NCBI RefSeq assembly: GCF_012927085.1
Contig: NZ_JABBFX010000002.1
Span: 372,001-436,000 of the forward strand
Direction: 5' to 3'
DNA: 64,000 nucleotides
Source of the DNA: Ramlibacter agri
GTDB taxonomy: Bacteria; Pseudomonadota; Gammaproteobacteria; Burkholderiales; Burkholderiaceae_C
Of the stretch, positions 44,176 through 58,461 are shown one piece after another. Within the stretch, counting starts at the first letter, position 1. Every line of letters begins with the position of its first letter. A program made the translations under genes and the position numbers. The notes beneath the pieces were generated by a model, which worked only from the letters and a program-made list of their open reading frames with translations, did not search any database and was not told where the DNA came from.

Positions 44176-45140
44176 AAACCCTGCTCGCCGCCATCGCGCT
44201 GGCACTTTCCCTTCCCGCCGCAGTGCAGGCGGAAGCCACCGCGTGGCCCGCCAAGACGGTGCGCATCGTGGTGCCCTATGCCGCCGGTTCCACCCCCGAT
44301 GCCATCGCCCGCCTGATCTTCGATCGCGTGCAGAAGGCCACCGGCAAGACCATGGTCGTGGAGAACAAGCCCGGCGCCGCCGGCATGATCGGGGCCGACC
44401 AGGCCGCCAAGGCGACGCCGGACGGCCACACGCTGGTGCTCGCACCGTCGGGGCCGCTGGCCACCAATGGCCTCCTGTACCGGAAGATGCCCTACGACCC
44501 CTTGAAGGATCTCGCGCCCGTGGCCCTGGTGGCCGAGACGCCGACGATCCTGGTCGCCAGCAACGCCACCCCCGCCAACAACGCGCAGGCGCTGCTGAAG
44601 GCGATGGCGGACCCGAAGAACCGCATGGCCTATGCCTCGCCCGGCGCCGGCACGCTCGGCCACCTGAACATGGCCTATCTCGTGGCGCGGTCAGGCGCCA
44701 CCGATGTGCCGCACGTGCCCTATGCCGGCTCGCCCCAGATCGTGACCGCCCTGGTCGCCAACGACGTCCAGCTCGCCGCCCTGCCGCCGCTCGCGGTGGC
44801 GCCCTTCGTGAAGGCCGGCAAGATCAAGGCCATCGCCACCATCGGCCCGCGCCGCAGCAGCGCGCTGCCCGACGTGCCGACGCTGAAGGAAAGCGGCATC
44901 GATTTCGCGCCGGTCGGCTGGTTCGGCGTCGCCACCACCGCCGGCACGCCGCCGGAGGTGCTGGAGGCCATCCACAAGCAGGTGGCCCAGGCCTTGAAGG
45001 ATCCCGAAGTCGCGGCCGCCTATCGCGCGCAGGGGCTCGACGTGGTCGACAAGGGGCCGAAAGCCTTCGGCGTCTATATTGCCGAGGAAGTCGCGCGCTG
45101 GAAGCCGGTGATCCAGCGTTTCGGCATCGCGCTGGACTAG
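44172..45140 (+). CDS. Bug-family periplasmic binding protein
   Basis: 322-aa Bug protein. A TTG start at 44172 overlapping the dioxygenase stop is chosen because GGAG lies 7 bases upstream and a complete signal peptide (KTLLAAIALALSLPAAVQA) begins there; the frame is open further upstream only inside the previous gene. Mature region: KTVRIVVPYAAGSTPDAIAR and MVVENKPGAAGMIGADQAA. It ends in CTAG shared with the stop of the convergent regulator gene. Presumably binds the substrate of the dioxygenase. No cognate membrane genes are adjacent. Confidence 0.88.
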   Translation: MKTLLAAIALALSLPAAVQAEATAWPAKTVRIVVPYAAGSTPDAIARLIFDRVQKATGKTMVVENKPGAAGMIGADQAAKATPDGHTLVLAPSGPLATNGLLYRKMPYDPLKDLAPVALVAETPTILVASNATPANNAQALLKAMADPKNRMAYASPGAGTLGHLNMAYLVARSGATDVPHVPYAGSPQIVTALVANDVQLAALPPLAVAPFVKAGKIKAIATIGPRRSSALPDVPTLKESGIDFAPVGWFGVATTAGTPPEVLEAIHKQVAQALKDPEVAAAYRAQGLDVVDKGPKAFGVYIAEEVARWKPVIQRFGIALD

Positions 45141-45814
45141 CCTCCGCGCTGTTTCGCCAACGCAGGCGCGCCCGTTCGCGCCTGCTTCATCATGCTGCTC
45201 TCGCTGGTGATGACGCCGATGACCTTGGCGAGCTGGCGGCTCACGGTGACGTAGGCGTGGCCGACGCGGCTGTCGAAGTAGAGCGAGTCGCCCTTCTCCA
45301 GCCGCACGACCTCGCCGGTGTCGAAATGCACGTCGATGCTGCCGGTGAGGACGTAGACGAACTCCTCGCCGGGATGCCGCGCGAAATCCTCCGGCCCGCT
45401 GAGGGTGCGCGCGTGCACCGTGCCCAGCACCGGCTCCATCTGCTTGCCCACGGCGGTGGTGCCGAGGAACTCGTACGAGAAGGCGAGGCCGCGATAGACC
45501 ACGCCCTGCCCCGCCTTCGTCAGCACCGGGCCCGCGAAGGGCCGCGGGGCCACGCCGGTTTCGGCGAACATCGCGCCGAAGTCCATCTGCAGCGCCCGCG
45601 CCAGCGCTGAGAAATTTTCATAGCCCAGCGCGAGCTGCCCGCGCTCGGCGCGCGATATGGTGGTGATGGACACGCCGGAGCGCTCCGCCAGCTCCGCCAG
45701 CGTCCAGCCCAATTGCTTGCGCGCGGCCAGCAGGCGGCGCCCCAGCGTGGCGCGGTCCACGGTGGGACTGGCCGCCGCGGGAGCTGGTACGGGTTTTGCA
45801 GTCGCCTTGCGCAT
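45137..45814 (-). CDS. XRE-type HTH regulator with C-terminal cupin
   Basis: 225-aa regulator with an N-terminal tail, a helix-turn-helix ([34 protein letters not shown]; about residues 24-61) and a C-terminal cupin sensing domain ([33 protein letters not shown]; about 147-199). Such XRE-cupin proteins usually regulate amine or amino acid catabolic genes. It is divergent from the ten-gene peptide/D-amino acid operon. Its own start codon lies inside a perfect 14-bp palindrome, and a related palindrome lies at the operon promoter, so autoregulation and control of the operon are likely. Confidence 0.88.
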
Positions 45815-45820
45815 GCGCAA
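45807..45820. promoter_or_regulatory. Operator O1 overlapping the XRE-cupin start codon
   Basis: TTGCGCATGCGCAA is a perfect 14-bp palindrome that contains the regulator's ATG (minus strand, 45814-45812). Its core recurs at 45871-45888. A weak -10 (CAGAAT on the minus strand, 45825-45820) would place transcription start close to the ATG, so the messenger may be leaderless and O1 would block it. Confidence 0.6.
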
Positions 45821-45870
45821 ATTCTGCACGAGGCCGGTGCGCCCGTACACAGGGAACAGGGGAAATCCCT

Positions 45871-56045: not shown

Positions 56046-57010
56046 ACACGCCCCTGCTCGAGGTCCGCAACCTCAAGAAGCACTACACCAGCCCCAAGCG
56101 CTGGCTGCAGCCGGAGAAGCCGGCGATCCAGGCCGTGGACGACGTCTCCTTCTCGGTGGCGAAGGGCGAAACACTGTCGCTGGTGGGCGAATCCGGTTGC
56201 GGCAAGACGACCACCGCCAAGTCGGTGCTGCGCCTCGTCGAGCCCACTTCGGGTTCCGTCAAGCTGGATGGCGAGGAACTGGTCGGACTGGGCAGCGAGC
56301 CCTTGCGCCAGCGCCGCAGGGAGATGCAGATCATCTTCCAGGATCCCTACGCCTCGCTGAACCCGCGCCTGAACGCCGGCGAGATCGTCGCCGAACCGCT
56401 GCGCAATTTCGGTGTGGGCAACGCCAAGGAGCGCGCCGAGCGCGTGCAGTGGTTGTTCTCCAAGGTGGGCCTGCGGCCGGAAGCGGCGAAGAAGTATCCG
56501 CACGAATTCTCCGGCGGCCAGCGCCAGCGCCTGGGCATCGCCCGTGCGCTCGCGCTGCAGCCCAAGCTGATCGTCTGCGACGAACCCGTGTCGGCGTTGG
56601 ACGTCTCGGTGCAGGCGCAGGTGGTCAACCTGCTGATGGACCTGCAGCAAGAGTTCGGCATCGCCTACCTGTTCGTCGCGCACGACCTGGCCGTGGTGCG
56701 CCACATCAGCCACCGCATCGCGGTGATGTACCTGGGGCACATCGTGGAGGTCGCCAACCGCGACACGCTGTTCTCCGCGCCGCGCCATCCTTACACCGAG
56801 ATCCTGCTGTCCGCCGTGCCGGTGCCCAACCCGCGCACGCCGGCCAAGCGCATCCTGCTGCAAGGCGACCCGCCGAGCCCGGCCAACCCGCCCACCGGCT
56901 GCCGCTTCCACACGCGCTGCCCACTGGCGCAACCGGTGTGCGCCAAGGAGAAGCCGCCGCTCAGCCCGCGCGGCGACGGCGAGCAGCTCGTGGCCTGCCA
57001 CTTCCGCTAA
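56042..57010 (+). CDS. Peptide ABC transporter ATPase, DppF type
   Basis: 322-aa ATPase: Walker [10 protein letters not shown], signature [15 protein letters not shown], Walker [16 protein letters not shown]-terminal [15 protein letters not shown]. Completes the importer. Followed after 11 bases, with AAGGAGAAG, by the deacylase gene. Confidence 0.93.
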
Positions 57011-57021
57011 AGGAGAAGAAC

Positions 57022-58461
57022 ATGAACGTGGACCTGATCATCCGCGGCGGCACCGTCATCGACGGCACCAAGGCCCCGCGCTTCGACGCCGACGTGGCAG
57101 TCCAGGACGGCCGCATCGCCGCCATCGGCGACCTGGCCGGCTACACGGCGCGCGAGACCATGGACGCCAAGGGACGCATCGTCGCGCCCGGCTTCATCGA
57201 CGCCCACACGCACGACGACATGGCCGTGCTGTCGCATCCGGGCATGGACTTCAAGGTCTCGCAGGGCGTGACCACCGTCATCGCCGGCAACTGCGGCATC
57301 TCCGCCGCGCCGCTGCGGCGCGACATGGACCTGCCGATGCCGCTGGGCCTGATCGAGTCGGCGCCCGACAAGCGCTTCACCAGCTTCCGCGCCTACATGG
57401 ACGCGCTGCGCGCCCAGCCCTCCTCCGTCAACCTGGCGGCGATGGTGGGCCATTCGACGCTGCGCGCGGTGGTGATGCCGGAGCTGGGCCGTCCGGCGAA
57501 CCAGGAAGAGATCGCCAGGATGCGCGAGATGGTGGAAGAGGCCCTGCAGGCCGGCGCCATCGGCATGTCCACCGGCACCTTCTACCCGCCGGCCACCGCC
57601 GCCACCACCGAGGAGATCATCGAGGTCGGCCGGCCGCTGAGCGCACGCAAGGGCCTGTACGTGACGCACATGCGCGACGAAGCCGACAAGGTGATGGACT
57701 CGCTGCAGGAGACCTTCCGCATCGGCCGCGAGCTGGACATCCCGGTGGTGGTGTCGCACCACAAGCTGCAGGGCGCGCGCAACTTCGGCCGCACGCAGGA
57801 GACGCTGCCCTTCATCCAGGAAGCGATGAAGCACCAGTGCATCTCCCTGGACTGCTACCCCTACACCGCTGGCAGCACGATGATCCGCACCGACCGCGGC
57901 ATGCTGGATGGCCGCGTGCTGATCGCGTCGAGCGAGCCGCATCCGCAGATGGCCGGCCGCGACCTGGACGACATCGCCCGCGACTGGGGCGTGGCCAAGG
58001 ACGAGGCGGCGCGCCGCCTTTCGCCCGGCAGCGCCATCTATTTCATGATGGACGAGAACGACGTGCAGCGCATCCTGGCCTTCGACGAGACCATGGTGGG
58101 CAGCGACGGCATCCCGGTCGGCGAGAAGCCGCACCCGCGCCTGTGGGGCACCTTCCCCCGCGTGCTGGGCCACTACGCGCGCGACGTCGGCCTGTTCCCG
58201 CTGGAGACGGCGGTGTGGAAGATGACGGGCCTGACGGCGCGCAACTTCGGCCTCGCCGACCGCGGCACCTTGAAGGCGGGCCAGGCCGCGGACATCGTCG
58301 TGTTCGACGCCGCCACCGTGCGCGACGCGGCGAACTACACCAACCCCACGCTGCCGGCAGAAGGCATCGCGGCCGTCATCGTGAATGGCGCCCTCACCTG
58401 GCGCGATGGCCGGCACGCGGGCGCGCACAAGGGGCAGGTCCTGTCGCGCACGCCCGCCTGA
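57022..58461 (+). CDS. N-acyl-D-amino-acid deacylase (D-aminoacylase family)
   Basis: 479-aa amidohydrolase-fold enzyme that removes the acyl group from N-acyl-D-amino acids. Metal ligands: H62 and H64 (FIDAHTHDDM), C91 (AGNCGIS, the cysteine ligand particular to D-aminoacylases), later histidines in YVTHMRDEA and VVSHHKLQG, and the catalytic D in MVGSDGIP. The family start LIIRGGTVIDGTKAPRFDAD is intact. Last gene of the operon. Its presence is the main reason to think the operon handles D-configured or N-acylated amino acids; dipeptide-like substrates are also reported in this family. Confidence 0.87.
   Translation: MNVDLIIRGGTVIDGTKAPRFDADVAVQDGRIAAIGDLAGYTARETMDAKGRIVAPGFIDAHTHDDMAVLSHPGMDFKVSQGVTTVIAGNCGISAAPLRRDMDLPMPLGLIESAPDKRFTSFRAYMDALRAQPSSVNLAAMVGHSTLRAVVMPELGRPANQEEIARMREMVEEALQAGAIGMSTGTFYPPATAATTEEIIEVGRPLSARKGLYVTHMRDEADKVMDSLQETFRIGRELDIPVVVSHHKLQGARNFGRTQETLPFIQEAMKHQCISLDCYPYTAGSTMIRTDRGMLDGRVLIASSEPHPQMAGRDLDDIARDWGVAKDEAARRLSPGSAIYFMMDENDVQRILAFDETMVGSDGIPVGEKPHPRLWGTFPRVLGHYARDVGLFPLETAVWKMTGLTARNFGLADRGTLKAGQAADIVVFDAATVRDAANYTNPTLPAEGIAAVIVNGALTWRDGRHAGAHKGQVLSRTPA

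Follow-up and report, generated by a model that had tools for sequence, protein, structure and literature searches.

What does a bacterium do with an operon in which zinc peptidases of the M81 family, known mainly for microcystin breakdown, are encoded beside a D-amino-acid-oxidizing flavoenzyme, a D-aminoacylase and a peptide importer? The question is raised by a 64,000-nucleotide stretch of the Ramlibacter agri genome (contig NZ_JABBFX010000002.1, positions 372,001 to 436,000; hereafter the window). Here ten plus-strand genes at 45923-58461 follow one another in the order DAO, M81a, SBP5a, M81b, SBP5b, DppB, DppC, DppD, DppF and D-aminoacylase, with intergenic spacings of 13, -4, 4, 13, 10, 2, 5, -4 and 11 nt, divergent from an XRE-cupin gene on the minus strand (45137-45814). 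An initial annotation, made from the sequence alone, had reported these eleven genes and a ten-gene strand with gaps of at most 13 nt; we find every gene where it was placed. We consider it probable that this operon, under local control, is devoted to the scavenging of short peptides with N-acyl groups and/or D-residues, the latter probably hydrophobic.

The first gene (45923-47068) had been called a DAO oxidase. Its DAO family membership stands, and we refine the name to a DauA-like flavin adenine dinucleotide (FAD) D-amino-acid dehydrogenase, as the characterised relative is a strict dehydrogenase. The protein aligns without gaps over 371 residues, at 61% identity, with DauA, the D-arginine dehydrogenase of P. 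aeruginosa (PaDADH; PDB 3nyc/6p9d). In DauA, R222 and R305 are described as binding the alpha-carboxylate, and Y53 and E246 as forming a gate in which E246 touches the guanidinium; the side-chain pocket is polar, with guanidinium contacts from E87 (PMC11193025) and likewise from T50 (PMC9996824). The window protein retains Y53, R222, E246, Y249 and R305, with H48, T50 and E87 replaced by Leu, Met and Ala. The same pattern extends to the scanned relative loci, where all 68 covering rows retain R222, E246, Y249 and R305 and all 66 retain Y53, while the E87 position is Ala in 65 of 66 rows and Val in the other; the polar H48/T50/E87 pocket has become mostly Leu/Met, Met and Ala among the operon relatives. 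Because the carboxylate and gate residues are kept while the pocket reads Leu/Met/Ala, the enzyme is predicted to be a dehydrogenase that prefers hydrophobic D-amino acids, with D-Leu, D-Met and D-Phe ahead of D-Arg. A D-arginine dehydrogenase in the strict sense is ruled out by the replacement of E87, T50 and H48 (by A, M and L), although the enzyme is predicted to act in the manner of DauA. We further note that PaDADH variants with a nonpolar pocket gained reactivity with O2 (PMC11193025).

The last gene (57022-58461) encodes a predicted N-acyl-D-amino-acid deacylase. Among solved structures it matches the D-aminoacylase 1m7j best, at 619 bits against 482 for the next different protein, and the two are 61% identical across 412 alignment columns. 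All six metal ligands of 1m7j (H67, H69, C96, H220, H250 and D366) are identical, as are seven of eight pocket residues, with L298 replaced by Met. The 61% identity suggests activity on N-acyl-D-amino acids. One solved match of this protein is PpOngB, a D-aminoacylase homologue, which raises the alternative of an oxidised-chitin-like pathway in which an OngB-type enzyme deacetylates N-acetyl-glucosaminate and a deaminase finishes the job. We regard this as highly improbable, since the window enzyme lies closer to true D-aminoacylase (619 versus 455 bits) and the accessible text lists no M81 enzyme with the ong genes. OngB/OngC logic is better matched by another locus of the same genome, which lies just past the window (L105, G000:C2:436001-450000, G000 being the window genome). 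This locus resembles the ong cluster in its logic and holds a second SBP5 and DppBCDF operon, a pyridoxal phosphate (PLP) enzyme of D-serine-dehydratase type, an RpiR regulator and, 12 kb beyond the window operon, a D-aminoacylase gene that is 47-49% identical.

M81a (47082-48551; PF07364 and PF07171) and M81b (50133-51605; assigned by Pfam and by tree) both have the full M81 plus MlrC_C architecture with the zinc site intact, and a search of the 7.2 Mb genome finds no M81 genes but these two. The initial annotation had cited MlrC, which acts on microcystin, as the known example of M81; the window proteins resemble MlrC without being microcystinases of its type. The two proteins score 413 and 404 bits against the MlrC NCBIfam model, whose cut-off is 999. 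Zinc ligands, ten substrate-binding residues and E70 as the proposed general base are described for MlrC (PMC9982164); that source names H196 as the fourth zinc ligand in one place and H191 in others, and as residue 196 of the chain is Glu, H191 was used. M81a keeps three of the ten substrate residues (N41, D341 and S392) and replaces seven (E70, Q468, S485, R492, W59, F67 and F96), although the alignment near E70 falls in a variable stretch. Across 108 M81 rows from 95 loci, E39, H133, H169, H191, D332, D341 and K464 never vary and D167 is present in 107, whereas E70 and W59 are each kept in two rows, F67 and Q468 in one, F96 in nine and R492 in none. These counts indicate that the M81 relatives keep the zinc chemistry and not the microcystin site.

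In a tree of M81 proteins, M81a and M81b fall in separate supported groups, each joined by genes of other genomes, which rules out a recent tandem duplication. MlrC, on a long branch, pairs with an M81 gene of genome G211 (L089), apart from the window genes; with the sub-cut-off scores and the lost substrate residues, this placement excludes an MlrC-type microcystinase. The L089 protein (G211:C16) itself retains MlrC-like W59, E70 and Q468, and its gene adjoins a TonB receptor and an SBP5 gene. Another M81 protein appears as a single 797-residue frame (L094:3400-5793, G226:C46) in which M81 and MlrC_C are followed by an alpha/beta-hydrolase domain, a possible fusion. In the bond that MlrC cuts, between Adda and Glu, we take the Glu to be the D-form. 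That the best-known M81 enzyme is reported to act on this Adda-Glu bond (PMC5852478) favours D-substrates for the window operon.

The initial annotation expected these genes to be linked in related genomes, and they are. Relative loci were taken from the best 80 of 465 M81a matches (79 distinct loci), so the counts are biased to close kin; they include only loci whose contig extends far enough. The nearest relatives of M81a lie in Ramlibacter and other Comamonadaceae. The whole set is kept in 49 of 62 evaluable loci, and its members individually in 68/77 (DAO), 67/76 (SBP5), 66/75 (DppB), 63/70 (DppC), 60/68 (DppD), 60/67 (DppF), 54/63 (D-aminoacylase) and 61/74 (XRE). The doubled M81-SBP5 pair is found in eight operons, the window's and those of seven loci. 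Variovorax paradoxus NBRC 15149 (L012) carries the operon with one such pair. Variant arrangements include regulator, DAO, M81 and an SBP5 match followed by an MFS gene (L007), regulator, DAO and M81 as the only members of the set (L072, L073), and M81 without the remaining set (L065, L070, L078). Genes of unnamed or variant loci were called with a simple script based on open reading frames (ORFs) and G+C content at third codon positions (GC3), with Pfam scans on some.

The association of M81 with DauA reaches beyond this operon. Among 120 evenly sampled genomes of the family (E <=1e-60 for M81, 1e-60 for DauA-like and 1e-80 for D-aminoacylase), M81 occurs in 18 genomes (39 genes), DauA-like genes in 44 and D-aminoacylase in 22. 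Seventeen of the 39 M81 genes, at 14 contig places in nine of the 18 genomes, have a DauA-like gene no more than 15.5 kb away, where 0.32 would be expected. At least 16 of the 39 (seven genomes) lie within 6 kb of an S12 gene; the S12 search used 1e-30, its counts come from M81-bearing genomes, and nine D-aminoacylase rows from genomes with no M81 match were excluded. Every link to DauA or S12 involves one of the 29 M81 genes of at least 43% identity. M81, DauA and D-aminoacylase are linked together in two of the 120 genomes (the window genome and G258) and, read by eye, in two of 150 genomes of an order sample (the window genome and G138). Because triple linkage is so confined, the full operon is patchy, and the M81-DauA association is wider yet clade-bound. 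In genome G220, M81-DauA occurs twice and close D-aminoacylases lie on other contigs, so that contig breaks may hide linkage, and in G103 M81 adjoins a 43% identical D-aminoacylase.

Many M81-DauA loci carry S12 enzymes and TonB receptors in place of Dpp and D-aminoacylase. Pfam places S12 proteins of the 'beta-lactamase family' in all five loci scanned (twice in L087, and in L088, L091, L092 and L094); among three scanned with NCBIfam, D-aminopeptidase is the best model in two and class C beta-lactamase in the third, all below cut-off. TonB receptors are confirmed in the four loci scanned for them (L084, L087, L089 and L091), MFS carriers occur in L084, L087 and L091, an oligopeptide:H+ symporter in L092, and XRE-type regulators in L091, L092 and L098. 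L091 also encodes the N-acetyl-D-Glu racemase DgcA, over cut-off, with a further match to the L-Ala-D/L-Glu epimerase model below it. In L065 (1443-6375), an M81 gene is immediately preceded by a gene for the exo-N-acetylmuramidase NamZ, and another M81 gene lies on the opposite strand, a possible murein link. NamZ there, and DgcA with its epimerase match in L091, would suit the alternative that the ligands of the window operon are murein-derived muropeptides. This we judge improbable: in Pfam and NCBIfam scans the genes of the window operon include neither NamZ nor any other enzyme specific to murein, and the window DauA-like enzyme, given its hydrophobic pocket, would be a poor catalyst for D-Glu, PaDADH itself being described as inactive on D-Glu and D-Asp (PMC11193025).

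The importer set is complete for a Dpp/Opp-type system, with two SBP5 proteins, two permeases and two ATPases. SBP5a (48548-50128; PF00496) has an N-terminus that looks signal-peptide-like by eye, and SBP5b (51619-53193) is 70% identical to it; they are followed by the DppB-type (53204-54139) and DppC-type (54142-55029; BPD_transp_1 and OppC_N) permeases and the DppD-type (55035-56045) and DppF-type (56042-57010; ABC_tran and oligo_HPY) ATPases.

Several observations weigh against D-residue or N-acylated peptides as the substrates. The identity of both SBP5 proteins to E. coli DppA is as low as 24%, and the solved protein closest to them, 8vdx, is labelled simply a solute-binding protein. D-aminoacylase lies near four of the 39 M81 genes (three genomes), a narrower linkage than that of DauA, which in turn is found with none of the ten M81 genes below 43% identity. 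Among order-sample genomes with both M81 and DauA, the window genome aside, the two are adjacent by eye in one of nine (G138), and two relative loci (L010, L021) have no DauA gene between regulator and M81. Finally, the P. aeruginosa proteins DppA1-5 are reported not to bind dipeptides with D-amino acids (PMC12728205). A Dpp-type transporter alone therefore does not imply D-peptide import, and the case for such import here would rest on the make-up of the operon rather than on the transporter family. The same P. aeruginosa system has several DppA proteins per DppBCDF and a metallopeptidase encoded in its operon (PMC12728205), and with no D-peptide binding it is a precedent for reading the window operon as one for ordinary L-peptide uptake, the M81 enzymes being general peptidases and the D-enzymes side activities. 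We find this quite improbable, as D-specific enzymes of two independent families form a conserved part of the operon, and the M81-DauA linkage recurs without Dpp.

The ligands could also be single N-acyl-D-amino acids, such as plant or microbial N-acyl or N-malonyl conjugates, with M81 as a second amidase for acyl groups that the D-aminoacylase cannot remove. Asp408 of E. coli DppA, which we take to bind the peptide N-terminus, aligns with Tyr in both SBP5 proteins, in an alignment that is weak at 24% identity. Moreover, D-aminoacylase and the DauA-like enzyme alone would suffice for such ligands, and the second Dpp and D-aminoacylase operon of this genome has no M81. The plant N-malonyl conjugate is a conjecture, and a literature search found no paper on N-malonyl-D-Trp in bacteria. 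Against these points, two paralogous M81 genes are kept in eight operons, and elsewhere M81 genes are found next to peptide-type partners (S12 proteins, and the oligopeptide:H+ symporter of L092), so that this alternative seems to us unlikely.

The divergent regulator had been correctly recognised as an XRE-cupin protein (HTH_3 and Cupin_2 in Pfam); its gene starts at 45814, which replaces a minus-strand ORF at 45137-47146 as the regulator gene. The best NCBIfam match is PuuR, far below cut-off. Two operator-like palindromes lie between regulator and operon, CTTGCGCATGCGCAAA at 45806-45821, overlapping the regulator start codon, and TTTGCGTATGCGCAAA at 45872-45887, 35 nt before the DAO start codon. 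A palindrome like TTTGCGTATACGCAAA, a motif first read from the window itself, is present with at least 13 of its 16 positions matching in all 62 regulator-operon gaps (the window and 61 loci), whereas the best match in shuffled gaps (20 mononucleotide shuffles each) never exceeds 12. With up to two mismatches allowed, the two window sites are the only ones in the whole 7.2 Mb genome, a search in which the reversed pattern, as control, matched once. Since only two such palindromes exist in the genome, the first of them over the regulator start codon, the arrangement is consistent with an XRE-cupin regulator that has one target and controls itself. A single terminator-like match (45858-45870) immediately precedes the second palindrome; neither 45700-46000 nor 58380-58620 gave a promoter-like match, and 58380-58620 gave no terminator-like one either. 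Elsewhere in the genome (L106, G000:C2:880001-895000), a second DauA-like gene (57%) is divergent from a second XRE-cupin gene (41%), with a class III aminotransferase, an amidase, a Bug/TctC-type match and hydantoinase A/B as neighbours.

Taken together, SBP5a and SBP5b with DppBCDF would carry the peptides across the inner membrane. In the cytosol, M81a and M81b, probably of differing specificity, would cut amide bonds, the D-aminoacylase would strip N-acyl caps off the released N-acyl-D-amino acids, and oxidation of the free D-amino acids by the DauA-like flavoenzyme would yield 2-keto acids and ammonia, the electrons going to carriers of the cell. Bound to its paired palindromes, the XRE-cupin protein would control itself and the operon, its cupin domain sensing a pathway compound. 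Gene order, conservation, catalytic residues and palindromes are read from the DNA itself; from them we infer the substrate class, the stereospecificity of the M81 enzymes, the transporter ligand, the cytosolic site, the order of steps and the regulation.

The D-substrate reading draws on the best solved relatives, a D-amino-acid dehydrogenase and a D-aminoacylase, whose catalytic residues are retained here, on the M81-DauA linkage (17 of 39 against 0.32 expected) together with S12 D-aminopeptidase-like enzymes and DgcA near other M81 genes, and on the second Dpp and D-aminoacylase operon of the same genome with its D-serine-dehydratase-type PLP enzyme. The route of import, cleavage, deacylation and D-oxidation proposed by the initial annotation is thus supported in part, by the gene set and its conserved linkage and by D-amino-acid-type enzymes near some other M81-DauA loci. 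Lipopeptides, murein or plant conjugates are possible sources. More tentatively, the M81 branch may comprise distinct zinc amidases that cut next to D-residues, with M81-DauA as a portable module that takes apart natural peptides containing D-residues (lipopeptides, siderophores, cyclic peptides) and is entered either through SBP5/Dpp and D-aminoacylase or through a TonB receptor, S12 D-aminopeptidase-like enzymes and an MFS/POT carrier. Genome context in this way ties an M81 clade to D-amino-acid oxidation and deacylation, suggesting a job for a little-understood zinc peptidase family and a testable prediction for many proteins annotated merely as M81 metallopeptidases, and it points to a route by which soil bacteria could use D-amino acids locked in natural peptides.

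A Pfam scan covering the proteins except DppB and DppD returned DAO, DUF1485/M81 with MlrC_C (twice), SBP_bac_5 (twice) and Amidohydro_3 as further families. NCBIfam returned related models for all ten proteins scanned, DppF being outside that scan, and names no exact function since no model reaches its curated cut-off. Upstream, a TauD-family dioxygenase gene and then a Bug/TctC binding protein gene (43108-45140) lie tail to tail with the XRE gene; as none of the 79 relative loci matches TauD and ten of them contain a Bug-type match (27-37%), we place this pair outside the conserved set. Directly after the operon, on the same strand, lies a large ORF (58552-62235) that by eye resembles a hybrid sensor histidine kinase.

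Among known systems, the operon shares with DauA the residues R222, R305 and Y249 and the gate Y53/E246, and differs in having L, M and A for H48, T50 and E87 and in encoding the enzyme within an M81/Dpp operon. With MlrC (PDB 7ylq) the M81 proteins share their architecture, the zinc ligands E39, D167, H169 and H191, and H133, D332, D341 and K464, while the substrate residues are largely replaced in M81a. Unlike the characterised D-aminoacylase 1m7j, the window gene belongs to an operon that also encodes an importer, M81 enzymes and a DauA-like protein. The B-C-D-F set is common to the Dpp systems of P. aeruginosa and E. coli, and several binding proteins per transporter are found in P. aeruginosa as here; unlike either, the window importer is encoded with D-amino-acid enzymes, and its SBP5 proteins share 24% identity with E. 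coli DppA. In the mlr cluster, MlrB is a putative serine protease and MlrD a putative oligopeptide transporter (PMC5852478), an arrangement resembled by the M81 loci near DauA or S12 genes, with their S12 proteins and carriers. The ong cluster, as described, likewise combines import, deacylation by a D-aminoacylase homologue and deamination, although with a sugar-acid substrate, a PLP-type deaminase and other transporters (PMC9537276). Our literature search, for which subscription journals were mostly out of reach, found, among the titles and abstract openings listed, none on this operon or on the M81-DauA association. Loci of this general kind have been proposed before, since in gamma proteobacterium NOR5-3 a TonB transporter gene beside a D-aminoacylase gene had already led to a genome-context prediction of N-acyl-D-amino acid uptake (PMC3400609). 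That locus uses TonB rather than Dpp, and the accessible text mentions neither M81 nor DauA; what the window operon adds to this earlier work is M81 together with DauA and Dpp.

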